A DNA stretch of 38,638 nt, taken from IMG/VR virus record IMGVR_UViG_3300003890_000037, positions 1 to 38,638 of that record; one strand, 5' to 3'. Below are positions 2,106 to 37,554 of the stretch, piece after piece (the first letter of the stretch is position 1; every line of letters begins with the position of its first letter). Under the pieces are notes generated by a model. It did no database searches. It was not told the DNA's origin and worked only from the letters and a program-made list of their open reading frames with translations. The stretch is from a virus. The position numbers and the translations under genes were made by a program.

Positions 2106-2801
2106 GCGAAAGTAATAAAAAATACGACTGGCAGCCCGATTACGCTGTCTTCTGCTGGCGTCACACTTCTTGCGTCAAGCTCTCGTACGCTATCACCGCA
2201 AGAGTATCTGCTTTGGGCATCGGCAGCTGTTCTTGCTGAGATCACGCCTTATATTCAGGCAGGTTCCATTGTTATAAATGATGGGACTTATGATTTATCA
2301 GGAACTAGCCCAACGTTAGCAGATTCGTATGCTCTTTTGCATCTCAGGTATACCGATGCAGCATTTAATATTCGGTTTTTATCTGATCCCGAGCGGGTTA
2401 ACGGGTTCGTCTCGAAGACGGTTCAAGAGGCGATTGAAGAGGCTGCTGGTGGAGCTGTAACCGGCATTGCTCCTACGATTACTGTCGGGGCAGTGACCGC
2501 TATAGCGTACAGCGAAACGCTTGCTGATAATACAGCTTATCAATTTGAAGTGACAGTCGTGGCTCGGCGTACGGACGCAAGTGGAACGGATGCAGATTTC
2601 ATGCTCTTAGCAAAAGTAAAGCGGGAGAGTGCTGGTGTTGCAGTAATTGGCGATGTATTCCAAGTTAAAAAAAATAGCACTGACCCAGCTCTAAGAGTCG
2701 ATTTATTGGTTAGTGGAAATGATTTTCAAGTTCAAGTGACTGGATCTGCTGGAAAGACAATTAAATGGCAGCCACAGATTGAACGAAATGACGTATCTTA
2801 G
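2103..2801 (+). CDS. Tail appendage/structural protein (TTG start)
   Basis: 232 residues starting at TTG with AAAAAGG upstream. The N-terminal part contains a VINDGTYDLS motif followed by aromatic-rich sequence, seen in many phage structural proteins. The last 110 residues share a domain with the protein encoded at 2856-3737: LADNT, then Y, RR(T/S)D, A-G and VSGN stretches, and a hydrophobic QV(T/K)G end. The two genes therefore share a C-terminal beta domain while their N-termini differ. Likely part of a tail fibre or head-fibre set; target unknown. Confidence 0.65.
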   Translation: MAKVIKNTTGSPITLSSAGVTLLASSSRTLSPQEYLLWASAAVLAEITPYIQAGSIVINDGTYDLSGTSPTLADSYALLHLRYTDAAFNIRFLSDPERVNGFVSKTVQEAIEEAAGGAVTGIAPTITVGAVTAIAYSETLADNTAYQFEVTVVARRTDASGTDADFMLLAKVKRESAGVAVIGDVFQVKKNSTDPALRVDLLVSGNDFQVQVTGSAGKTIKWQPQIERNDVS

Positions 2802-5138: not shown

Positions 5139-6851
5139 ATGCATTATACACCCAAATTCCAAATAGCTTTTGAAGAAGTCAAAAAGATAGCGGAAGAAAA
5201 GGGTATAGCGGCTGGTAGGGTAGCTTTCCGTGATGCAATGCTTGCTCTTGGACATGAAGAGCGTATTAAGAACTTATATCGCGTTCAGGATAAACTGTCT
5301 AAGAAAGCGATATTCTTTAAACCAAACGGTCCCCAACAACAATATCTTAAAACGAAGGGCTCGCGGAACACGGTCCTTAAATGTCGTCAGGTTGGTTTTA
5401 CTACGCTTAATTGCATTCGTGGTCTTGATTATGCCATTTGGGAGCCTAATAGTCGTTCTGGCATTCTTTGTCATAAGCTCGGAACGGTTAAGACAATTTT
5501 TAATGATATCACCAAATTCTCCTATAATTGGTTTATTCGCGATTGGGGACGCTTTTATAAGCCGGAGCAAAAGGCGGATTCGGCAACTGCTCTCTCGTTT
5601 TCACATGATGGACTAGGCCGACCTCTTGAGTCTTCAATCCTAGTGATGCACGATTTCCGTGGAAAGACGTTACACTTCTTGCACGTATCTGAAGCTGCTC
5701 GTGTTGATGACGATCGCCTCATAGGTTCTGTAAATGGCGTGCCTGATAATGGCGAGGTAACACTCGAGTCTACTGCTGCTGGTCAAGCTGGCGAGTTCTA
5801 CCGGCTTTGGCAAATGTGGAAGAGTAAGGGGAAATTGGCCCCTTATAGAGGTTTCTTTGTTCCTTGGTATCAGCACTATCCGGAAGATATTGATAAGTGG
5901 GATATGCCCGAAGCTGCAAACTGGACTGCGCGTGAATACGAGCTTCTTGAAAGCTATAAAGGAAAGATTACACCTGCTCATCTTCTGTGGCGTCGCTGGT
6001 GCATTGATGCCAAGTGTAATGGTGATGAAGAAAAATTTGAGAATGAGTATCCGACGAATGATCAAGATTGCTTTCTAGCAAATGCTGCATCGGTCTTTCC
6101 TCATTCCATTCTGCGCATGCAACAACGAAATGTGCGAGATCCGGCTTTCGTTGGTCATACTTCGGTAAATGGTACGAGTATAGATGTAGTTGAGGATCCT
6201 AAAGGTATTCTTGCGATTTGGGAAGAAAGTGATCCTTCGCATCAGTATGTGATTGGTGCCGATCCAGCTGGGGGACTTGGGAAGGATCGCAGTGCTGCTT
6301 ATGTCAAAGACGTAAAGACTAATAAGCTCGTTGCCCGACTTTGGGGACAGATTCTGCCCTCTGACTTTGCTAAGGAGCTTTACAAGCTAGCGAAGTTTTA
6401 TAACAACGCCTGGCTTTGTGTGGAAGCGAATAACCACGGGCATGTGGTGATTGAAGTTTTAAAACAGATGGGCTATCGCAATATGTATAAGCGATCAGCG
6501 ATCGATGAGCTGACGGCGAAGCCTACGAAGAAAGTTGGCTTTTTGACCACGAGTCAGACCAAAATTATGATTACTGAGCGCCTTAAGACCTCGATTAAGG
6601 ATAATAAGATTATTATTCTTGATCAGGCGTTGATTTCAGAAATGACAACCTTTGTCCAGCTTTCGACGAAGAACGGAAACTCCTTAAGACGAGAGGCTGC
6701 TGATGGCGCGCATGATGATCTAGTGATGGCCGCAGCGCTGACAGAAGAGATGGCCTGTTCTCGGACTTTTGGGGACGGGGATGAATACAATCGTGAGCAA
6801 CTGCCCGATTCTGTGGTAGTAGACTCAGAAACCGGATTTATACTGGGGTAG
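5139..6851 (+). CDS. terL: Terminase large subunit (packaging ATPase-nuclease)
   Basis: 570 residues, usual TerL length. The N-terminal ATPase has a Walker A-like KCRQVGFTT (residues 81-89) and a Walker B strand ending LHVSE (about 186-190). The C-terminal RNase H-fold nuclease shows GADPAGG (about 374), VEANNHG (about 428) and DGAHDDL (about 522), which supply its metal-binding acidic residues. It cuts concatemeric DNA and pumps it into the prohead through the portal encoded next door. The small subunit is not adjacent; it lies at 31044-31427. Confidence 0.95.
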   Translation: MHYTPKFQIAFEEVKKIAEEKGIAAGRVAFRDAMLALGHEERIKNLYRVQDKLSKKAIFFKPNGPQQQYLKTKGSRNTVLKCRQVGFTTLNCIRGLDYAIWEPNSRSGILCHKLGTVKTIFNDITKFSYNWFIRDWGRFYKPEQKADSATALSFSHDGLGRPLESSILVMHDFRGKTLHFLHVSEAARVDDDRLIGSVNGVPDNGEVTLESTAAGQAGEFYRLWQMWKSKGKLAPYRGFFVPWYQHYPEDIDKWDMPEAANWTAREYELLESYKGKITPAHLLWRRWCIDAKCNGDEEKFENEYPTNDQDCFLANAASVFPHSILRMQQRNVRDPAFVGHTSVNGTSIDVVEDPKGILAIWEESDPSHQYVIGADPAGGLGKDRSAAYVKDVKTNKLVARLWGQILPSDFAKELYKLAKFYNNAWLCVEANNHGHVVIEVLKQMGYRNMYKRSAIDELTAKPTKKVGFLTTSQTKIMITERLKTSIKDNKIIILDQALISEMTTFVQLSTKNGNSLRREAADGAHDDLVMAAALTEEMACSRTFGDGDEYNREQLPDSVVVDSETGFILG

Positions 6852-6854
6852 TGA

Positions 6855-8753
6855 ATGCCAATGCACTATAGTGGCGACGAGCCCTTTGAAAGATCAAAAG
6901 AGCAGATTCAAGAGTCTCTGCGAGAGCAGCGGATTGTTGAGATGGTTCGTGCTTTCATGGAACGCTCGCAAGCCTATCGCGAGCCTTTCTTAGAGCTAGC
7001 TCGAAAAAGTCGTGAGATGTATGAAACGTGGCAGTCGCCCTCGACTTCGCAGATCCAACGCGCCAACTTAAAGCTGCCGTTTGGGTTTACGGTGATTGAG
7101 ACGCAGCTGCCTCAGATCATGGATATCTTTTTTCAGAGTGGTAGCTCCCCTGTCCGTTTTATCGGACGGGGTCCAGATGATGCAAAATGGGAGAATTTAC
7201 TTACGGACTTTCATCAGTATCAGCTTGAGGAAATGTCCTTTGAGACGAAAACAGCCGCCTTTATTAAGAGCTTGCTTCTTGATGGGACGGCGATCTGTAA
7301 AGTTCCCTATCGATTTAAGGAACTCGAGGTTATTCGTAGACTTTCTATTATAAACCCACAAAGTGGTGAGGTCGAGACGCGGAAATTCCCGGTTGTGGAA
7401 GAAATCTTCGATCAGCCAGATCTTGAGCCTGTCGCTATTTATGATTTCTTTCCTGATTGGTCTGTTAAGATACCGGGCGATATTACTTCGATGCGCGGCT
7501 GCGTGCATCGCTCATATCGTACTCTTGCTTCGCTTCGCTCTGATCGGAAGTATAAGAATTTAGATAAATTGGAGCAGAGTCTTACGATTAAAGGGACTTC
7601 AGCGTGGGCTCCTCCTTACTACGATAATGATGGCTTTAAACGAGACTTTGAGCGTCTTCAGGATCAAGCAGAGACTGGGATCAAGGATGGTCGGATTGAG
7701 ATTTGGGAATACTGGGGTCTATATGATCCTCAGCAGAATGGGAATTTCAAAGAATATTTGATTGTTATTGCCAATGGTGATGTAGTTATTCGTGCTGAAG
7801 AGAACTTCTATGACTATAAATTTAAGCCCTTTGTTGCTTCAGTAAACTATATCCGCGAAAACGAATTCTACGGAATTCCCGAATTGTTGGCAATTCGTCC
7901 TCTAATTAAGGAAGCAAATACGCTGCGTAATGCCCGTTTAGACGTCGTGAACCTTTCTGTTAATCCAATGATGTTGGTAGATAGGGCTGGTGGAATTGTT
8001 GCAAAGAGTCTCTTTAGTCGGCCTGGGGGCGTGGTCTGGACTAATGATATGAATGCAGTTAAGCCATTGGAAGTGCGAGATCCTTCGGCTGGTTCACTGA
8101 ACGAGTTTTCGCTGATCCAGCAGGATATTCAGAATGCGACTGCTCTTGTGAATGCCGCTCCAACAGTAAGCCAACTTGGGAAGCAGTTTGGGCGATCTGC
8201 TACCGGCGTCAATTTTATCCAAGGGTTAAGTTCTTCGCGAGTAGGGTTGAAGGCTCGTTTACTGGCTGATCTCTATTTTAAGCGAGTTGCTTGGATTATG
8301 CTAATGACGAATCGGCAGTTTGTGACCGACGAGAAGTGGGTTCGAGTGTCTGATCCAAATGCCCCAAACCCCTTCCAAGTATTGCCCCCAGATGCCTTTT
8401 TTCAAAAGTTTGATTTTGCAGTTAGTACCAACTTGGATTCGGGGGGCGTTGAGGGGCAGTTTCAAAAGATGCAGTCCGTTAGCCAGATTCTTCAAGCAGC
8501 GGAACAGAGTCAGCCAGGAACGGCTAAGATGGATGTTCTTTTAGAAGCGCTTCTACGCCCGATTTTGGGACGCCAAACCAAACGTTTTGTTCGATCTGAC
8601 GAAGAGCGTCAGCAAATGCAACAGCAGCAGCTTGCAGCTACGCAGATGCTTAACGCCCAAATTGGTAAGGCAGCCCCGCAACCGAATGCCGGAGCTGTTG
8701 CCTCTGTGTCGCCCACAGAGCAGGTACTCTCAAATCTAGGTCTGCGTACCTAG
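6855..8753 (+). CDS. Portal (head-tail connector) protein
   Basis: 632 residues directly after TerL and before scaffold and capsid, the usual place for the portal. It has the long mixed helical/beta composition of podovirus portals: a charged N-terminal helix, a central region with NPMMLVDR and GGVVWTND, and a Gln-rich C-terminal tail (EERQQMQQQQ) like a barrel end. It would form the dodecameric ring through which DNA enters and leaves. No catalytic motif. Identification rests on size, order and general similarity, not on one signature. Confidence 0.85.
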   Translation: MPMHYSGDEPFERSKEQIQESLREQRIVEMVRAFMERSQAYREPFLELARKSREMYETWQSPSTSQIQRANLKLPFGFTVIETQLPQIMDIFFQSGSSPVRFIGRGPDDAKWENLLTDFHQYQLEEMSFETKTAAFIKSLLLDGTAICKVPYRFKELEVIRRLSIINPQSGEVETRKFPVVEEIFDQPDLEPVAIYDFFPDWSVKIPGDITSMRGCVHRSYRTLASLRSDRKYKNLDKLEQSLTIKGTSAWAPPYYDNDGFKRDFERLQDQAETGIKDGRIEIWEYWGLYDPQQNGNFKEYLIVIANGDVVIRAEENFYDYKFKPFVASVNYIRENEFYGIPELLAIRPLIKEANTLRNARLDVVNLSVNPMMLVDRAGGIVAKSLFSRPGGVVWTNDMNAVKPLEVRDPSAGSLNEFSLIQQDIQNATALVNAAPTVSQLGKQFGRSATGVNFIQGLSSSRVGLKARLLADLYFKRVAWIMLMTNRQFVTDEKWVRVSDPNAPNPFQVLPPDAFFQKFDFAVSTNLDSGGVEGQFQKMQSVSQILQAAEQSQPGTAKMDVLLEALLRPILGRQTKRFVRSDEERQQMQQQQLAATQMLNAQIGKAAPQPNAGAVASVSPTEQVLSNLGLRT

Positions 8754-8765
8754 TTAGGAGAGAAT

Positions 8766-9122
8766 ATGTTGTATAAAAACGAAGTGATTCGCCCATATGA
8801 CCCTGAGACGGGGACAGAGCTTAGTGATCTAGCCGCCCAATTGTCCGATGAAGAGACACGGGAAGCTATCGCAGCCGGTTTAGCGCTGGAAGAGATGACG
8901 CGTTCTAAAGGCTGGGAGATCTGCGATAACTTTTTAAAGAGCATGATTGAGCGGTATCGCGATGTACTCACAACCGAAACAGATTTTGAAAAGCTTAAAC
9001 GTATCCAGGAAGCCATTAAATGTTATCAGAGTCTTCTGAATTACATTGAATGGCGAATCCATGATGCGAAACGTCTTCAACTAACCCCGGACCCGGCATT
9101 TGCCGGTCAATCCAAGGAGTAA
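8766..9122 (+). CDS. Hypothetical head-region protein
   Basis: 118 residues, ATG preceded by TTAGGAGA. Acidic, mostly helical, no Cys residue except one in each half. It sits between the portal and scaffold genes, with a 3-bp gap to the scaffold. Small helical proteins in this position often help head assembly, but nothing in the sequence proves a function. Confidence 0.65.
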   Translation: MLYKNEVIRPYDPETGTELSDLAAQLSDEETREAIAAGLALEEMTRSKGWEICDNFLKSMIERYRDVLTTETDFEKLKRIQEAIKCYQSLLNYIEWRIHDAKRLQLTPDPAFAGQSKE

Positions 9123-18109: not shown

Positions 18110-20947
18110 ATGGCAGAGGAATTTAAAATAGTCTCGACGCCCAATGAGTTTGAAGTCGTCGCTTCTCCTGACGATGAGTTTCAAGTAGTCAGTGCCCCGC
18201 CCCAAGCAGTCCCGGAGGTCTTCGGGCCAGCGAGCACACTCCCACTCGCACCATCGGAAGAGCAACAGATCTTAGCCCCCTTAAAGTTTGCTACTCGCCC
18301 GATTGCACCTGATCGTGGAGCAGCCCTAGCCGCCAAAGGGATCGGTGGAACCGCCCGCCTCGTCGAACAAGCCGCCTTTCCGATTCAACAACAGTTTGCT
18401 GGAACGAAGTTTACTGGCGAGCAGCCGCAGCCGTTGTTTGAGGCAGCTGTCGAAGCCGTCCCTCAATTGAAACCCTTCTTGCGACCTGATATTGAAGCCA
18501 AGAATGCTCGCGAAAAAATCCTAGAACTTATCTCTGATCCTACCATTATTAGCTCTGTTGGGCCTCTTGCGAAGGCAGCAAGTAGTGCAACAAAGGCGTT
18601 AGTCACGCGAGGAGTCGAACGTCTCTTTGCACGTAGGCTTGCTCTTACCATCCCGGAACAGCAAACGATTGCTGAATCTCTAGAAAAGATTTATGGTCCT
18701 GAAAAGATTCTAGCAAAAAAGATCGCAATAGACGATGCAAATCAGCTGCTCGAATGGGCCAAACAACTCCAAAAACTAACCGATGAAAATACTGGATTAA
18801 AAGTAGCCTATAACGCACAGATAGCAAATGCAAATGCATCTGTTCCTGATCTCGAAACTCCCTTTCAGATTAGAACTCTACAACGCCAGATTAGTCAGAA
18901 TGCTTGGGAACGCGCTAAGCTCGCAAGACAGATACAAAATAAACTAGATGGGCCCGGAGTTGAAGCATATCACAAGGCCTTGGAGTATGTGGAAAACCCA
19001 GGGCTAATTGCAGATACAGTAAGTCGCCAAGGGATCGTCTTAACCCCAGAACAAGTTGAGCAGGCTCGCGCCTTAAAACCACTCAGCAATCTGCCTGGGG
19101 TGGCCGGTCAGCTACAAAGTGCCTTTCGCGCTTCTGCATTCTCGTTCGATGATATCGTTCGGCTTGGACACCAAGTTGATGGGGCTCCTCGCGGATTCTT
19201 TTCGCGTAGTGTGGTAGAACCTATCGCTGAGGCCTTGGCAGTCGCCGATGCTGAAACCATCGTTTTAAAACAGCGCGTTCGTGATAAAGCTCAGCAGCTG
19301 GGAATTGATGTCAATTCCAAAGTCGAGCGAGAGTTTTTATTTCGTCTAGCCGATAAAGATCCCGCAGCGTGGACATCTGAAGAAGTTAAACAACTAACTC
19401 CCCGGCAACACGAGTTTATCAATTTCACAAAGAAGATTTATAATGATCTCATTAATGAGATAAACGCCAAGCGGATTGAGTTTGGATTAGAGCCCATCGC
19501 AGTTCGTAAGAACTACGTTACCCATTTACAGGAACTAAGTTCCTTAGATGCCTTAGGAATGGATCCTATCACAGCTAATGTGAGCCCCAAAGTGGGCAAG
19601 GGCATTGCCTTTCAATTTGGTAAGAAACGTCTTGGAACACGAGCCAAACAAGACATACTGGAAGCATTAGACGCTTATATCGGGCCTGCTAGACGGCAAG
19701 TTAATCTAATTCAGCCCGTCGCGCAAGCAGAAGCTCTGCTGCCTCATATGCCGTCAGATATACAGGAAGCAACCTCGTTATGGTTAAACACGGCTATTAA
19801 GAGGGGGGCTCCAGATCCGAAAGACCTCGCAGTGAAAGCCCTAGGACGGATCGGCGAGTTAACACTGGATACAGCCACCACTCTTCAGGCAGCGATCAAC
19901 CGCAGCATCCTTGGCGGTAGCTTCCGCGTTCTTATCCAGCAGCCCTCGCAGCTAACACATACCGCGCTTCAGACTGGTTTGGGTAAAACTCTTGGGGGTT
20001 TAGCAAAAGGGTGGTCCGATGAGGCAATTCCCGAGGCAATTCGGAAGACCTCCACGTTTCTCAGTAACCGCTCGCTGCGTGATGAAATTATCCCGGTTAA
20101 TACCGGCCTCCTAAAGAGTGCCGATAAGTTCGTCGGAACCATGCTTGATTTCGGCGATCGGGCTATGGCCCGCGCCTCTTGGATTGCCGCGTTTGACCAA
20201 GCAAAGAGTTATGGCGTTGCAGATCAAGTTGCCCGCCGCTATGCCGATCATTATGCACAGATGCTGCATGCAATCTATCGTGACGAGTTTAAGCCTGCAA
20301 TTCTCCGGGGACGCCTTGCAAAAGTCGTTCTGCCTATGCAAACCTTTGGTTTCAATCTCTGGAATTTTATTAGTAAAGATCCGACCATGCTCGCCCAACT
20401 TAATAACACGAGCAAGCTACGAGAGTTTATGAAGATTGTCGGGGCTATGTATGCTATGAATCTGGCTTATAATATCGCTGGAGTTGGTGGTGTAGGACCA
20501 TTTCAGCTTGCATTGCCGAAGGAAGCCAGCTACGCAGGCTTTCGTGAAGCTGCTGAGATCACCGCGCTTACCTTCCCTTTAACCGGCGCAGCTCGATTTG
20601 GGTTAGAGCCAGGCCCCGTTAAGCTGTTCAAAGCTATCACAGACATGCAGACGCTTCAAAAGGCCTTCTTGCATGCAGAGCCAGAAAAGCGGGCGGAAGC
20701 TAAAAAAGAATTTTTTAAGCAACAAGTCCTAACCTTTGTACCTTTTGGTCGGCAGGCCAAAGACACTTGGGAAGGGGTTGAAGCAATACGCGACGGCTAC
20801 TACAAGATCGGGCGAGAAGAGATTAATATAAAGGGTTTAGATAAAGCACGAGCCTTGTTTATAGGCCCAAAGGCCCTCTCCAAAGCGAAAGAGGAGAAGA
20901 GTCGCCAACGAGTCGAAAGCTTAAATAAGATACTAGGGCGGGATTAG
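18110..20947 (+). CDS. Large internal virion protein
   Basis: 945 residues, the largest gene. The N-terminus has three imperfect copies of a short motif (FKIVSTP, FEVVASP, FQVVSAP), probably a docking repeat. The middle is helical with a conserved-looking RKNYVTHLQEL stretch. From about 590 to 760 it resembles large helical regions of phage polyvalent or ejection proteins (GGSFRVLIQQPSQLTHTA, DRAMARASWIAAFDQAK), and about 785-805 is hydrophobic. No peptidoglycanase motif is evident. Likely the long ejection-channel protein corresponding in place to T7 gp16. Confidence 0.7.
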   Translation: MAEEFKIVSTPNEFEVVASPDDEFQVVSAPPQAVPEVFGPASTLPLAPSEEQQILAPLKFATRPIAPDRGAALAAKGIGGTARLVEQAAFPIQQQFAGTKFTGEQPQPLFEAAVEAVPQLKPFLRPDIEAKNAREKILELISDPTIISSVGPLAKAASSATKALVTRGVERLFARRLALTIPEQQTIAESLEKIYGPEKILAKKIAIDDANQLLEWAKQLQKLTDENTGLKVAYNAQIANANASVPDLETPFQIRTLQRQISQNAWERAKLARQIQNKLDGPGVEAYHKALEYVENPGLIADTVSRQGIVLTPEQVEQARALKPLSNLPGVAGQLQSAFRASAFSFDDIVRLGHQVDGAPRGFFSRSVVEPIAEALAVADAETIVLKQRVRDKAQQLGIDVNSKVEREFLFRLADKDPAAWTSEEVKQLTPRQHEFINFTKKIYNDLINEINAKRIEFGLEPIAVRKNYVTHLQELSSLDALGMDPITANVSPKVGKGIAFQFGKKRLGTRAKQDILEALDAYIGPARRQVNLIQPVAQAEALLPHMPSDIQEATSLWLNTAIKRGAPDPKDLAVKALGRIGELTLDTATTLQAAINRSILGGSFRVLIQQPSQLTHTALQTGLGKTLGGLAKGWSDEAIPEAIRKTSTFLSNRSLRDEIIPVNTGLLKSADKFVGTMLDFGDRAMARASWIAAFDQAKSYGVADQVARRYADHYAQMLHAIYRDEFKPAILRGRLAKVVLPMQTFGFNLWNFISKDPTMLAQLNNTSKLREFMKIVGAMYAMNLAYNIAGVGGVGPFQLALPKEASYAGFREAAEITALTFPLTGAARFGLEPGPVKLFKAITDMQTLQKAFLHAEPEKRAEAKKEFFKQQVLTFVPFGRQAKDTWEGVEAIRDGYYKIGREEINIKGLDKARALFIGPKALSKAKEEKSRQRVESLNKILGRD

Positions 20948-21423
20948 TGCGCTCGATTCATAAAATCATTCTGCATTGCTCAGCTAGTGACGTACCGAAG
21001 CAGACTGCAGCTTTAATCGACCAGTGGCATCGAGCCAGAGGCTTTCGTAAAATCGGCTATCATTATTTCATCCGGCAGGATGGGACGATTGAACGAGGTC
21101 GAAATGAAGAAGAAATCGGAGCCCACTGTGAAGGAGAGAATTCTTCTAGCATTGGCATCTGTCTTGCTGGCCTGTCTAATTTTTCTAGTAGTCAATTCGC
21201 ATCGCTTAGAACTCTCTTAGCCGATCTACGAAGCCGGTATCCACATGCAACAGTTCACGGACATCGGGAATTTCCCAGTGCAATCAAACAAGGAAAGACG
21301 TGTCCTGTCTATGATGTTGTTCCATTTAAGGACTTCTATGAACATCCAGTTGATTATAAAGGAGGCTCAGTATGGGACTTGATCAAATCCTTACTTTCAT
21401 TACTGAAGATCTTCCGAAGATAG
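20947..21423 (+). CDS. Endolysin: N-acetylmuramoyl-L-alanine amidase (Amidase_2, T7 lysozyme-like)
   Basis: 158 residues, GTG start overlapping the previous TAG by one base. All expected residues are visible: Zn ligands His10 (ILHCSAS), His106 (HGHREF) and Cys119, catalytic Tyr38 (GYHYFI) and Lys117 (GKTCP). It cuts the amide bond between muramic acid and the stem peptide. In T7 the homologue also inhibits the phage RNA polymerase, but no such polymerase is visible here. The C-terminal 20 residues are hydrophobic/basic (LIKSLLSLLKIFRR) beyond the catalytic core and could touch membrane. The next gene overlaps by 52 bp. Confidence 0.93.
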   Translation: MRSIHKIILHCSASDVPKQTAALIDQWHRARGFRKIGYHYFIRQDGTIERGRNEEEIGAHCEGENSSSIGICLAGLSNFSSSQFASLRTLLADLRSRYPHATVHGHREFPSAIKQGKTCPVYDVVPFKDFYEHPVDYKGGSVWDLIKSLLSLLKIFRR

Positions 21424-21584
21424 TACAGGCACTCTTGATGGTATTAGGGGGGCTTAAGGTCATTGCTCGCTATACGCGCTGGGCGTGGGATGATCAGCTA
21501 CTTCAAATGATTGAAAGCCCGCTGCGACTATTCCGAGCAAACCCGAAGCCGGAGGAGAAGGAGGACTCAGATGAATCCCGATAA
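21372..21584 (+). CDS. Small membrane protein, holin candidate
   Basis: 70 residues with one membrane segment (about 15-33: LPKIVQALLMVLGGLKVIA) and a charged C-terminus (KPEEKEDSDESR). ATG follows AAAGGAGG, an excellent site. It overlaps the amidase on one side and the next small gene on the other. Single-span holins and T7-type holins have this size and layout. The neighbour at 21571 is an equally good candidate. Confidence 0.6.
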   Translation: MGLDQILTFITEDLPKIVQALLMVLGGLKVIARYTRWAWDDQLLQMIESPLRLFRANPKPEEKEDSDESR

Positions 21585-21804
21585 GTTGCTCTATGATATA
21601 GATAAACGCTTGGCTGTTCTTGAGGTCTTGACTAACGAGCATTCTAAACTCGCAATTAAAGAATTTGGAGAGATCAAAAAAGAGTTGGTCTCTATGCAGA
21701 CCGATCTCGTTCGCCTGCGGATTCGTGTCGCTGGTATGGCTGCAGTAGTTTCACTATTTGTTACAGGAGTTGTTCAATTCCTGTCGTCACAAGTCTTTCA
21801 TTAG
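21571..21804 (+). CDS. Coiled-coil protein with one C-terminal membrane span, holin-like
   Basis: 77 residues from ATG 21571, chosen because GGAGGAC lies just upstream. An N-terminal amphipathic helix (KRLAVLEVLTNEH) leads to a membrane segment (about 53-73: AGMAAVVSLFVTGVVQFLSS). Similar DUF-type small phage proteins are common in lysis cassettes. It may be holin, antiholin or a lysis accessory. It overlaps the previous gene by 14 bp. Confidence 0.6.
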   Translation: MNPDKLLYDIDKRLAVLEVLTNEHSKLAIKEFGEIKKELVSMQTDLVRLRIRVAGMAAVVSLFVTGVVQFLSSQVFH

Positions 21805-21814
21805 GAGATCTACG

Positions 21815-22348
21815 ATGGGTATCACGGGGCTTTTAATTATATCATTTATATTACTTCCTTTTGCCGATCGGGTTGCACTGATCACATTTGAAGCAACCCC
21901 GCTGCAATTTCTAATCGGGCTCCTTACTCATCAAGTAGGGCACGCTAATATCCATCATCTGCTTGGGAACTTCATTTTTGTGTACCCTTACGCGCTTTAC
22001 GTGGAGCAGCAGCTGGGAGTTAAGCGCTTTCTGCAGCTCTTTTTCTTGACCGGCATCTTCGCCGCTCTGCTGCATATCACAACCTTCGGGCTTCATACGG
22101 GGTTAATTGGCTCATCCGGAGCAGATTTCGGTATAATGGGAGCCGCATGCGCTTTGTTCGGGGGGAAGAAAGAGTGGACTAAGTGGGTCGGCCTGGGGTG
22201 TTTCTTTGCAGCTCTCTATTGGCAGGCTAGTGTACTGCTAGCTAGCACCTTCGCCGGAGTGGCGACTCTAGCACATATCGGGGGCTTAATTTCAGGCTAC
22301 GTGTTGATTAAAAGTCTTCATCGGGATCGTCCAAAAAAGAATCCGTAG
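21815..22348 (+). CDS. Rhomboid-family intramembrane serine protease
   Basis: 177 residues from ATG 21815 (SD TAGGAGA). Several membrane segments are evident. The rhomboid signatures are complete: nucleophile Ser101 in GSSGA, base His154 in AHIGG, and His43/His48/Asn52 with the same spacing as His145/His150/Asn154 of E. coli GlpG. Rhomboids cleave membrane proteins within the bilayer. It is cotranscribed with the amidase and two small membrane proteins, which are possible substrates or partners. Rhomboids are very uncommon in phages; host origin is likely. The 3' end overlaps a gene on the other strand by 41 bp. Confidence 0.88.
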   Translation: MGITGLLIISFILLPFADRVALITFEATPLQFLIGLLTHQVGHANIHHLLGNFIFVYPYALYVEQQLGVKRFLQLFFLTGIFAALLHITTFGLHTGLIGSSGADFGIMGAACALFGGKKEWTKWVGLGCFFAALYWQASVLLASTFAGVATLAHIGGLISGYVLIKSLHRDRPKKNP

Positions 22349-30506: not shown

Positions 30507-31004
30507 ATGCATCAATTTAAAGTGGGTGATAACGCGGTATATTTGTCGCATGGGGTAGGGATTGTGAAAGGGATCGAGGAGCGAGAGTGCACCCCCGGCA
30601 AGAAGCATCGTTTCTATATCCTTGAGATCCAGGATAATGGCGCCCCCAAAAAAGTTTTTGTCCCTATCGAAACCTCTGGTCAGCGTTTGCGTCCCATTAT
30701 CAAGCAAAAGGAAGTGGAAGAGGTTTATAAGATTTTGCGTAAGCGTGATGATACGCCCGTCGACCATCAGACCTGGAACCGGCGTTACCGCGATTATATG
30801 GAGAAAATCCATACCGGGCAGGTGCAGGAAATCGCCGAGGTCTTGCGCGCCCTTTTTCTTCTGAAGCATGACAAAGATCTTTCCTTCGGGGAACGAAAGC
30901 TTCTCGATCAGGCCAAGACACTTTTGGTGAAGGAGCTTTCACTTGCGCAAAATATTAAGGAATCCGATGTCGAGCGCGAGCTTGAAGGGATCTTCGGCGC
31001 CTAA
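30507..31004 (+). CDS. cdnL: CarD/CdnL-type RNA polymerase-binding transcription regulator
   Basis: 165 residues, the normal family length. The N-terminal RNA polymerase-interacting domain (1-65) begins FKVGDNAVYLSHGVGIVKGI; the helical DNA-binding domain has the conserved Trp90 in QTWNRRYRDY and the FGERKLLDQA and LLVKEL helices. CdnL proteins bind the beta subunit and stabilise open promoter complexes. The sequence is very close to delta-type CdnL as I recall it, and its codon choice is more GC-ending than in the neighbours. It sits in an 835-bp insert bounded by a phage direct repeat, so it was probably taken from a host. Confidence 0.92.
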   Translation: MHQFKVGDNAVYLSHGVGIVKGIEERECTPGKKHRFYILEIQDNGAPKKVFVPIETSGQRLRPIIKQKEVEEVYKILRKRDDTPVDHQTWNRRYRDYMEKIHTGQVQEIAEVLRALFLLKHDKDLSFGERKLLDQAKTLLVKELSLAQNIKESDVERELEGIFGA

Positions 31005-33830: not shown

Positions 33831-34076
33831 TCAATGCGGTTTGATCAAGTCAAATTCATCGTCGTCCCCGTTCATTACTGCTGCCTCAAGTTCCTCTAGT
33901 TCAGAGATCAGTTGTTCTACTCGCTCAATGGCAACATTTAGTTTTTTATGCTGAAACTTGTTTGGGGCGCTTGCCCGATTCATGTACTGATGCAGGTGGT
34001 TCGCCTTCTCTATGAACTCGCTTACAAGGTTTGGCGAAAGTTCCAGCGATGCGAGCGACACAGGTGTTCTAATCAT
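33831..34076 (-). CDS. Small coiled-coil protein coupled to UDG
   Basis: 81 residues from ATG 34076, which overlaps the UDG stop (TTATGA) and has GGAGG four bases upstream. Mostly helical with a heptad stretch (LNVAIERVEQLISELEELEA) and an acidic end. Function unknown. Confidence 0.55.
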   Translation of the reverse strand: MIRTPVSLASLELSPNLVSEFIEKANHLHQYMNRASAPNKFQHKKLNVAIERVEQLISELEELEAAVMNGDDDEFDLIKPH

Positions 34077-34711
34077 AAGTCCTCCCATTTGATCGGCACT
34101 TGCCCGGACTTCTCAAGAAACTCATTCGCCTTCTTAAAGTGCCCACACCCAAAGAAGCCCCGTCTAGCTGAGAGCGGCGAAGGATGGGCGGCTTCGAGCT
34201 TGCAATGTTGCGACTGAATCAGATCTCCCTTGCGCCGTGCGAAGTTCCCCCATAACATGAAAACCCTAGGCCGACTATCCTTACCTAGCTCATTGATGAT
34301 CTTGTCTGTAAAGGTTTGCCATCCTAAGGCATGATGGGAGAGCGGCAAGTTTGGTGTCACTGTCAGGATTGAATTTAATAGTAGCACTCCTTGTTTGGCC
34401 CAACCTTCAAGATCACCATGCGCGGGCATCCGGACCTTGCAGGACTCTTCTATTTCAGTATAGATGTTAACTAACGAGGGAGACAAGGGCTGGCCGCGCG
34501 GTACCGAGAAGGCCAATCCATTTGCCTGCCCCTGTCTAACATAGGGATCCTGTCCTAGGATGATCACCTTTGCTTTGTCAAGCGGTGTTAGCATGAGAGC
34601 CCTAAAGATGTCAGGACTTGGGGGATAGTGGGGCCAGCGAAGTGCCGCTTGGATATCCGCGAAGTAGTCCTTGCCTGATTCCTCTTTCAATATATCTGAC
34701 CAGGTTTTCAT
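34073..34711 (-). CDS. ung: Uracil-DNA glycosylase, family 1
   Basis: 212 residues, close to bacterial UDGs. Catalytic Asp55 in GQDPYV (53-58; family usually GQDPYH), uracil-binding Asn113 in LLLNSILTV, and His176 in HPSPLS, with the LGW and FMLWG strands. It removes uracil from DNA. The change of His to Val at the end of the water-activating motif is a visible oddity; the main catalytic residues remain. It forms a unit with the small gene downstream. Confidence 0.9.
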   Translation of the reverse strand: MKTWSDILKEESGKDYFADIQAALRWPHYPPSPDIFRALMLTPLDKAKVIILGQDPYVRQGQANGLAFSVPRGQPLSPSLVNIYTEIEESCKVRMPAHGDLEGWAKQGVLLLNSILTVTPNLPLSHHALGWQTFTDKIINELGKDSRPRVFMLWGNFARRKGDLIQSQHCKLEAAHPSPLSARRGFFGCGHFKKANEFLEKSGQVPIKWEDL

Positions 34712-34791: not shown

Positions 34792-35073
34792 TTATTGACA
34801 TGCTCCTTTGTAGTCACCATGGGCCAAATGAGCAGCCAGCTTAGCAACTGGGATCTTGAGCGTTCGTTGTTTCGAGCCTGGCTTATGACATACAATTATA
34901 ATAGGCGGCTTCGGGCTCGGACTTGGCTTGGGACTTGGACTTGGCTTGGGACTCGGGCTTGGCTCGACTGTTGGTGTCGGAGTGGGTTTAGTGTAAGGCG
35001 GCGTGGGGCGCGAGGTAGTTTTGCCACATGCATTTATTGTTAGAAGCACGACGACGACGATCATATGAAACAT
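34792..35073 (-). CDS. Proline-rich lipoprotein with C-terminal CH/HLAHGD motif
   Basis: 93 residues. A short signal peptide ends in a lipobox (TINAC, Cys16). Residues 30-57 are tandem PSPKPSPSPK repeats, then a compact tail: Cys62-His63, HLAHGD (82-87) and Cys92. The CH...AHLAHGD..G.C pattern occurs in secreted bacterial proteins; a metal or disulfide-stabilised fold is likely. A rigid Pro-rich stalk from the outer membrane fits superinfection exclusion or a spanin-like role. SD AGGGAG. Confidence 0.7.
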   Translation of the reverse strand: MFHMIVVVVLLTINACGKTTSRPTPPYTKPTPTPTVEPSPSPKPSPSPKPSPSPKPPIIIVCHKPGSKQRTLKIPVAKLAAHLAHGDYKGACQ

Positions 35074-35074
35074 G

Positions 35075-35278
35075 TTAGTCTCCCTTATTCCTTTCTAAAT
35101 GACTGGAAAACCGCCCCGTTGCTCGGGTCCAGCGGTCAAATTTCACTAGCTCCTCTTCCTTCTGAGACTGGAACACGAACTGTCGCTGAACTTTTGGAAA
35201 GCAGCGGTCGCAATAAGTATGCCACGTCAGTTTCCGCGATCTAGTGCAGCCTCGCATCTTGCAGTTTGCATCTGTCAT
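35075..35278 (-). CDS. Small zinc-finger-like protein
   Basis: 67 residues from ATG 35278 (site GGAGGAAT), coupled by ATGA to the upstream gene. Cys6, Cys11, Cys28 and Cys31 (CKMRGC and YCDRC) can form a zinc site; the rest is basic with aromatic residues. Longer frame starts lack ribosome sites. Likely DNA or RNA binding. Confidence 0.55.
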   Translation of the reverse strand: MTDANCKMRGCTRSRKLTWHTYCDRCFPKVQRQFVFQSQKEEELVKFDRWTRATGRFSSHLERNKGD

Positions 35279-35580
35279 CGAATTCCTCCGCTGAAGACGA
35301 CTGCTCCCCCCGCCAACCCGACTGCAAGACCGAGTACCGCATAATGGTACCACGGGATCAGCGGTTGATTCGCGGAAAGGCGGTCAATTTCCTGCGTCTG
35401 GTCTTGGATAACCTGAAAGAGTAGCTTTCGCTCGTCCTCCAGTAGTTTAACATAGCGGTCGCACTTGTCAAGGATGGTCTCGCAGTTAATGAGGATCGGG
35501 CTTTCCGCTCTCAACTGGCCGCCACTGGCGAGGAGTATTATGATAATCATGACCAGCTTGTTTAGTTTTTTCGTGCACAT
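35275..35580 (-). CDS. Exported protein with coiled coil and C-terminal membrane anchor
   Basis: 101 residues. Signal peptide (KLVMIIIILLASGGQLRA, cleavage before ES), a coiled coil with two Cys (CETILDKCDRYVKLLEDER), then a C-terminal membrane span (YHYAVLGLAVGLAGGAVVF). The body would lie in the periplasm. It overlaps the next upstream gene by 95 bp, as overlapping envelope gene pairs do. A role in lysis or exclusion is possible. Confidence 0.6.
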   Translation of the reverse strand: MCTKKLNKLVMIIIILLASGGQLRAESPILINCETILDKCDRYVKLLEDERKLLFQVIQDQTQEIDRLSANQPLIPWYHYAVLGLAVGLAGGAVVFSGGIR

Positions 35581-35719
35581 TTTTGATCCTTTCGTGTATT
35601 AGCTCTATGTTTTTTGCGGAAATAGCGCGCTTCAAACTGGCGAGTTTCCTCCGAATATAGAACTCGCGCAGTGTTACAATGACAATCGCCACGAGAGCAA
35701 CGATATACTCTAATCGCAT
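35486..35719 (-). CDS. N-terminal membrane span plus coiled coil
   Basis: 77 residues: membrane segment at about 5-20 (YIVALVAIVIVTL), then a strongly basic stretch (REFYIRRKLASLKR) and a helical, His-rich tail. The basic residues after the span favour a cytoplasmic C-terminus, which argues against an i-spanin topology. Partner of the overlapping exported gene. Function unknown. Confidence 0.55.
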   Translation of the reverse strand: MRLEYIVALVAIVIVTLREFYIRRKLASLKRAISAKNIELIHERIKNVHEKTKQAGHDYHNTPRQWRPVESGKPDPH

Positions 35720-36761: not shown

Positions 36762-37397
36762 TCAGTCTGTATTGGTGTATGACTTTACACCATGGTATAC
36801 GAGCCCGATACGTGGATTGTCTCCCAAAGCCTGCGCATCGTCCTTTGATGCATCAGCATAACCTGCCGCTTGTAAGGCTTCAAGACTTGAGAATACCCAC
36901 GAATGCCTGTCAACGTTGCGGTCAATCAACTTGTCTTCAGTCCCGCCGTATGAGTATATAACAATGAAGTTTGATGGAATGAGACCCTCAGCGTCGTATT
37001 GTTTAAACAAGGAAACCATCTTGGTATACGTATAGAATTGCACTGTCGGATTAGCACGTATAATTGACAGCCATTTAGTTAGATACTCCTCATTGTAGAA
37101 GTCTCCGCTGTCGTGAATACGCAGTCTCTTAACTTTGCGTCGCTTCAGTTCGGCGTTAATAATGAGCGTGAAACGTGGGGAGAGAGACAGCTTCAATCGC
37201 CGCTCGAATGCGGACGCCACGTGACTGAAGCGGTATGCTCCCATGGTGGCATAGCATCCCTTCGCGCATGCTGCAGCATTCGGGCATGTCTTCATTCCAG
37301 TAGTTGAACTGTATGCGGGAATGCTCCAGTTATACGTCTTCACTCCTGTCATTTTTGCAATCTTAGAATTCTGAGTCAACCAGTTATAGCCTTTCAT
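36762..37397 (-). CDS. GP88-like Cys-rich phage protein
   Basis: 211 residues from ATG 37397 (site GGGAG). A CPNAAACAKGCYATMGAY cluster (Cys38, Cys44, Cys48) resembles the phage GP88 family; the spacing could hold a metal or Fe-S centre. RIHDSGDFYNEEYL and FYTYTK are further family-like motifs that suggest a TIM-barrel-like enzyme. The reaction is unknown. An upstream ATG adds 25 residues but has no ribosome site. Confidence 0.75.
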   Translation of the reverse strand: MKGYNWLTQNSKIAKMTGVKTYNWSIPAYSSTTGMKTCPNAAACAKGCYATMGAYRFSHVASAFERRLKLSLSPRFTLIINAELKRRKVKRLRIHDSGDFYNEEYLTKWLSIIRANPTVQFYTYTKMVSLFKQYDAEGLIPSNFIVIYSYGGTEDKLIDRNVDRHSWVFSSLEALQAAGYADASKDDAQALGDNPRIGLVYHGVKSYTNTD

Positions 37398-37554
37398 GCG
37401 AGTAACTCCCTTGTTTCTTTGTCGTATTGAATCTAACCTCTGCTGCTTGAGGAAGCAAGTGTTTTTCTGCAAGATCCCACACGGCGCGGCGTGCCTTGCG
37501 AATTTCGACGGTATTGTTATCCTTCAATCCTGTCTCCGCTCGGAAAGGTCTCAT
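37384..37554 (-). CDS. 56-residue hypothetical protein
   Basis: Reads through a gap otherwise left empty, ending 14 bp inside the GP88-like gene. Helical middle with EIRKARRAVWDLAEKHLLP, basic C-terminus. The ribosome site (AGGCGG) is weak. It also overlaps the end of the broken frame at 37517 by 38 bp. Confidence 0.45.
   Translation of the reverse strand: MRPFRAETGLKDNNTVEIRKARRAVWDLAEKHLLPQAAEVRFNTTKKQGSYSHERL

Follow-up and report, generated by a model that had tools for sequence, protein, structure and literature searches.

A rhomboid protease gene in the lysis cassettes of uncultured phages and its candidate substrates

Phages control lysis with holin pores, antiholins, SAR endolysins and spanins, and we know of no intramembrane protease that takes part in this control. 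A gene for a rhomboid intramembrane protease at the end of a phage lysis cassette therefore raises the question of what such an enzyme does there and which protein it might cut; even for bacterial rhomboids, few substrates are known. The gene lies in the IMG/VR virus record IMGVR_UViG_3300003890_000037, which we analyzed over all of its 38,638 nucleotides (hereafter, the window). The window encodes a large terminase, an SU10-type portal, a major capsid protein, a tail collar protein and a family A DNA polymerase and, because it is a virus record full of phage genes, the rhomboid is not host contamination. The rhomboid is the final plus-strand gene of a block that runs from the structural genes through the amidase, and the replication genes, on the opposite strand, converge on it (Table 1). 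Elsewhere, the window encodes a CarD-family protein with RID and C-terminal domains, probably an RNA polymerase regulator (30507-31004, plus strand; CarD_C E 1.3e-29), a uracil-DNA glycosylase superfamily protein (34073-34711, minus strand) and a Gene product 88 family protein (36762-37472, minus strand; PF17338 E 2.1e-42).

Table 1. Features of the window that bear on the rhomboid and its candidate substrates (TM, transmembrane segment).
Feature	Coordinates	Strand	Basis
Endolysin, N-acetylmuramoyl-L-alanine amidase (Amidase_2)	20947..21423	+	PF01510, 66 bits; phrog_822, E 1.4e-44
70-aa single-TM protein, holin-like position	21372..21584	+	Conserved family, hydropathy/charge
77-aa XhlA-like protein	21571..21804	+	Family alignment, architecture
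Rhomboid intramembrane protease, 177 aa	21815..22348	+	Pfam PF01694, AlphaFold2/Foldseek, profile alignment, family alignment
Proline-rich putative lipoprotein, INAC lipobox	34792..35073	-	Sequence
Type I membrane protein, candidate substrate outside the cassette	35275..35580	-	Homologues, predicted topology
Rz-like (i-spanin-like) protein, N-terminal TM and charged helix	35486..35719	-	Sequence, hydropathy

The rhomboid reading frame is open, and an AGGAG sits 7 bases 5' of its ATG. In a Pfam search, its product matched PF01694 with 67.8 bits (E 1.5e-18; cut-off 22.6), the only match to this family in the entire record. An AlphaFold2 model of moderate confidence (mean pLDDT 76, pTM 0.76) contains six TM helices (residues 2-20, 46-67, 69-89, 99-115, 120-143 and 148-169) and a short helix in the first loop (residues 29-40). 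When this model was compared to the PDB with Foldseek, ranks 1-32 were all GlpG or iRhom (probability 1.00), with TM scores of 0.54-0.71 by query length. In addition, a profile built from 11 homologues found GlpG in the PDB (chain 4qnz, E 1.5e-6), and the resulting alignment places S101, H154, H48 and N52 on GlpG S201, H254, H150 and N154. S101, in a GSSGA motif, and H154, in an AHIGG motif, correspond to the catalytic dyad, H48 and N52 to the oxyanion residues. A preliminary description of this DNA had recognized a rhomboid from these residues and H43, and had suggested structure prediction and a profile search as checks; both point to GlpG-like rhomboids and all five residues lie where it had put them, H39 being present as well. 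The rhomboid fold is also adopted by iRhoms, which are inactive; because of this, the fold alone is no proof of activity, and the case for an active phage enzyme rests on the residues instead. As judged from these comparisons, the window gene is confirmed to encode a rhomboid with an intact active site.

The active site is also retained in relatives. In a family alignment of 11 sequences, in which homologues are 26-37% identical to the window rhomboid, H39, H43, H48, N52, G99, S100, S101, G102 and F105 are invariant. All 11 copies keep the catalytic serine and all ten that cover H154 keep the histidine (the rhomboid of contig L041 is cut by the contig end and thus stands outside the latter count). 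Homologues with degraded catalytic residues, which the preliminary description had named as evidence against its reading, do not occur among them. Less saturated pairs gave dN/dS values of 0.18 (G013/G015), 0.24, 0.27 and 0.30, and the gene is under purifying selection.

Compared to GlpG (MEROPS S54 bacterial rhomboids), the phage protein has the same six-TM core and fold, the HxxxxHxxxN region, the GxSG serine on TM4 and the histidine on TM6, but it lacks an N-terminal cytoplasmic domain and starts at TM1. It further differs from bacterial rhomboids in being phage-encoded, beside lysis genes, and in missing the WR of the first (L1) loop of GlpG, which five relatives have kept. The GlpG model TIGR04239 scored 20.1 bits on the window rhomboid and its cut-off of 250 was not reached.

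Rhomboids are rare in phages, as the preliminary description had maintained: with the window rhomboid as a tblastn query, 50,697 phage records yielded four matches, two of them in huge phages of about 635-642 kb and the others in faecal scaffolds that are unverified. GlpG as the query yielded seven, three of them plainly Salmonella, and mainly added host contamination; the rhomboid of contig L020, used likewise against phages and plasmids, yielded none. Viral rhomboids as such have already been seen (PHROG 16931, BFVD models), with homologues of the present protein in phrog_16931, in BFVD entries such as Siphoviridae sp. ctLqe90 and in the huge phage LR745206. We viewed the neighborhoods of the LR745206 and MT835518 rhomboids by eye and recognized no lysis gene nearby. 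In a literature search with most subscription journals outside its range, we came upon no paper that describes a phage lysis module with a rhomboid; one paper brings rhomboid, holin and endolysin together, though by way of its references alone, and a 2025 rhomboid review mentions neither phage nor virus.

Scanning IMG/VR with the window rhomboid as a single protein revealed no relatives. Scanning it with the window DNA polymerase, and thus drawing a sample chosen independently of rhomboid content, revealed five contigs whose polymerases are 54-59% identical to it and a sixth at 28%. In the same place as in the window, each of the five encodes a rhomboid that scores above the Pfam cut-off; the sixth encodes no such protein. 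When 84,980 species genomes were searched for a host with XhlA-like and terminase profiles, no relatives turned up.

The rhomboid gene is preceded in the window by the amidase, which lacks a signal peptide or TM according to hydropathy, and by two small single-TM proteins. An RYT.W.WDD motif is invariant in the family alignment of the 70-residue protein. The 77-residue protein has a coiled coil at its N-terminus and a TM at its C-terminus, and it is called XhlA-like on account of this architecture only; a homologue gave a weak match to the phrog_689 holins (E 0.006). In architecture, the arrangement resembles the XhlA/XhlB cassette of PBSX-like phages, where the gene for a protein with a coiled coil and a C-terminal TM adjoins those of a second membrane protein and an endolysin. 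It differs in that the second membrane protein is the rhomboid and in that the XhlA-like product has no match to Pfam XhlA.

In relatives, the cassette consists of an endolysin, a 46-54-residue one-TM protein, a 73-residue XhlA-like protein and the rhomboid, in this order. The type of endolysin changes between relatives while the rhomboid stays: the window and G004 have Amidase_2, G003 gave a weak match to this family, G005 and G002 have a glucosaminidase, the putative endolysin of G006 lacks a family assignment and that of L022 matches no family. Rhomboid and XhlA-like profiles, scanned separately, retrieved the same eight contigs; two extra XhlA-like matches (G025 and G026) are on contigs that end within the XhlA-like gene. 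Wherever the sequence extends beyond this gene (nine of nine sequences, the window included), the rhomboid follows directly. Moreover, the stop codon of the XhlA-like gene and the start codon of the rhomboid gene can share bases in relatives (TAATG or TAGTG), and there the two genes appear to be translationally linked; in the window, the rhomboid has a separate ribosome site. Opposite the rhomboid cassette, some relatives encode matrixin-like proteins: L022 bears a matrixin-like metalloprotease motif (2221-2727, minus strand; HExGHxxxxxH region, PF00413 E 2.4e-8), similar open reading frames are located in L045 (6908-7363) and L047 (6932-7327), and the L022 and L045 products resemble lipoproteins.

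A second cassette architecture was observed in L046 and L048, where genes for Phage_holin_4_1, a rhomboid and Phage_lysozyme overlap in this order. The L046 holin and lysozyme were matched with E 2.9e-12 and 7.1e-38, respectively, and the L048 genes were read by sequence likeness; the two rhomboids are about 60% identical. The two settings have no recognized cassette gene in common except the rhomboid. A final IMG/VR scan aimed at further phages with this second arrangement returned only L046 and L048. In total, the rhomboid adjoins endolysin and holin-like genes on the same strand in nine sequences with one order and two with another. The lysis-cassette setting claimed in the preliminary description is thus borne out, both by the conserved order in relatives and by the separate holin/rhomboid/lysozyme cassette, and membership of the predicted protease in the lysis module is well supported. 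Family, fold, invariant active site, purifying selection and a conserved place in two kinds of cassette are all read from sequence.

The idea that a rhomboid accompanies every XhlA-like gene was rejected beyond this clade. The phage G001/L002 has an amidase that is 55% identical, an XhlA-like gene that is matched weakly (E 0.002) and no rhomboid; a small TM protein occupies its place. Because of this phage, lysis with such genes can evidently manage without a rhomboid, which on this gene content is an added, clade-specific part of the cassette rather than a universal one. Two protease genes lie in the lysis region of L002: one for a ClpP-like protease right after the amidase (6387-6989) and, on the opposite strand, one for a trypsin-like protease with a membrane anchor (8085-8912).

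Rhomboid substrates usually have type I or type III topology (PMC7232013, PMC2941825). We screened the TM proteins of the window for these topologies, which are our own estimates from hydropathy and charge rather than the output of a trained predictor, and found just two such proteins, the 70-residue cassette protein and the type I protein encoded outside the cassette, both conserved in relatives. The 70-residue protein has no lysine or arginine to the left of its TM and two to the right, and is predicted to be N-out/C-in (type III). The XhlA-like protein has three to the left and none to the right, giving a predicted N-in/C-out orientation unlike that of usual rhomboid substrates, and it was downgraded as the main substrate. 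The preliminary description had proposed both small cassette proteins as substrates: the first fits and the second has the wrong predicted topology. Matching of recognition motifs in the candidates was too loose to discriminate and was dropped.

The type I protein, absent from the preliminary description, combines a signal peptide, a Cys pair, a coiled coil, Pro-x-Tyr, a Gly-rich TM and a basic tail. Homologues of this protein are encoded in G003, G004 and G006, and a similarly built type I protein adjoins the rhomboid cassette in L046/L048; across these proteins, the Gly-rich TM contains an invariant glycine and the basic tail is usual. Its gene is overlapped by that of the Rz-like protein in the window and in G003/L066, and the two genes are neighbors in L046/L048. 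The overlapping pair (35275-35719, minus strand) may represent an unusual spanin pair. Close by, the putative lipoprotein bears SPSPKP repeats and, C-terminally, a VCHKPG...HGDYKGAC segment; its match to a PHROG Rz-like spanin reaches E 0.36 only, and it is tentatively considered a possible o-spanin. The 70-residue protein and the type I protein are the leading substrate candidates, about equally placed.

Based on these results, we tentatively favor a role for the rhomboid as a late-made lysis factor of the inner membrane that probably cuts a phage single-span protein with a periplasmic N-terminus, a reading that we hold to fall slightly short of an even chance. As the last gene of the lysis operon, the rhomboid would be catalytically competent, would be made late and would act in the inner membrane. 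Its substrate would most likely be the type III holin-like protein or the type I protein paired with the Rz-like gene, and cleavage would release or inactivate this substrate, thereby setting the moment of lysis or completing its last step. What we infer beyond the gene itself is that its product is proteolytic and made late, which protein it cuts and how this affects lysis. Several points count against a lysis factor: accessory genes, too, are usual where late operons end, the type I gene of the window is on the strand opposite the cassette and about 13 kb away from it, and G001/L002 has no rhomboid.

The main rival is a host target. The rhomboid might cut a host inner-membrane protein, weakening the envelope or blocking other phages, its phage neighbors then not being substrates. 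Accessory functions are common among membrane genes that end late operons, G001/L002 shows that the cassette does not require a rhomboid, and bacterial rhomboids do act on type I and type III host proteins (PMC7232013). However, the phage gene has been kept across deep divergence and in two architectures, beyond what would be expected of a strain-specific exclusion gene, and conserved type I and type III phage proteins exist. On balance, we consider a host target rather unlikely.

Alternatively, the rhomboid could act in the manner of a rhombosortase (TIGR03902; RssP of Vibrio), cutting the type I protein free of its C-terminal anchor, perhaps with attachment of a lipid, so that a spanin component passes from the inner to the outer membrane. 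The phage enzyme shares the compact core of rhombosortases and the phage encodes a signal-peptide protein with a C-terminal Gly-rich TM, usually followed by a basic tail and overlapping an Rz-like gene. TIGR03902 is matched by 11/11 copies and, among the matches listed, is the best NCBIfam match (four copies). In the case of VesB, cleavage occurs after a Gly and the new C-terminus is apparently modified (PMC11389362). The TIGR03902 scores are 26-32 bits, however (32.1 for the window copy), far under the curated cut-off of 84, and we therefore do not file the phage proteins as rhombosortases. Moreover, no GlyGly-CTERM protein was recognized, the type I proteins match no GlyGly-CTERM model, and an o-spanin may already be provided by the proline-rich lipoprotein. 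Such maturation thus seems improbable.

Capture of a host gene that has no fixed role and was kept by chance would agree with the frequent carriage of host-derived genes by phages and with the few contigs sampled, about a dozen, but conserved position, translational coupling, dN/dS values of 0.2-0.3 and an invariant active site make it very improbable. Finally, the rhomboid directly follows the XhlA-like gene, a position taken by a small TM protein in G001, and no gene of the window cassette is a holin with certainty. A role as a holin or former of membrane lesions in place of XhlB, with only incidental protease activity, is nevertheless hardly to be expected of a protein whose catalytic serine, histidine and oxyanion residues are invariant at only 26-37% identity to the window copy and which in L046 is encoded beside a separate holin.

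In a stronger form of the lysis-factor reading, intramembrane proteolysis would be an obligatory, timed step, the late rhomboid shedding or re-anchoring the spanin-like type I protein or activating the type III protein. We regard this form as doubtful; if true, it would be distinct from the holin, pinholin/SAR and spanin pathways.

Because relatives keep both the rhomboid gene and its active site, our analysis suggests a previously unrecognized protease step in lysis by these uncultured phages. A rhomboid with invariant catalytic residues in two kinds of lysis cassette would bring intramembrane proteolysis into lysis control, and it would offer rhomboid biology a compact system, with the enzyme and its likely substrates encoded within one small genome.
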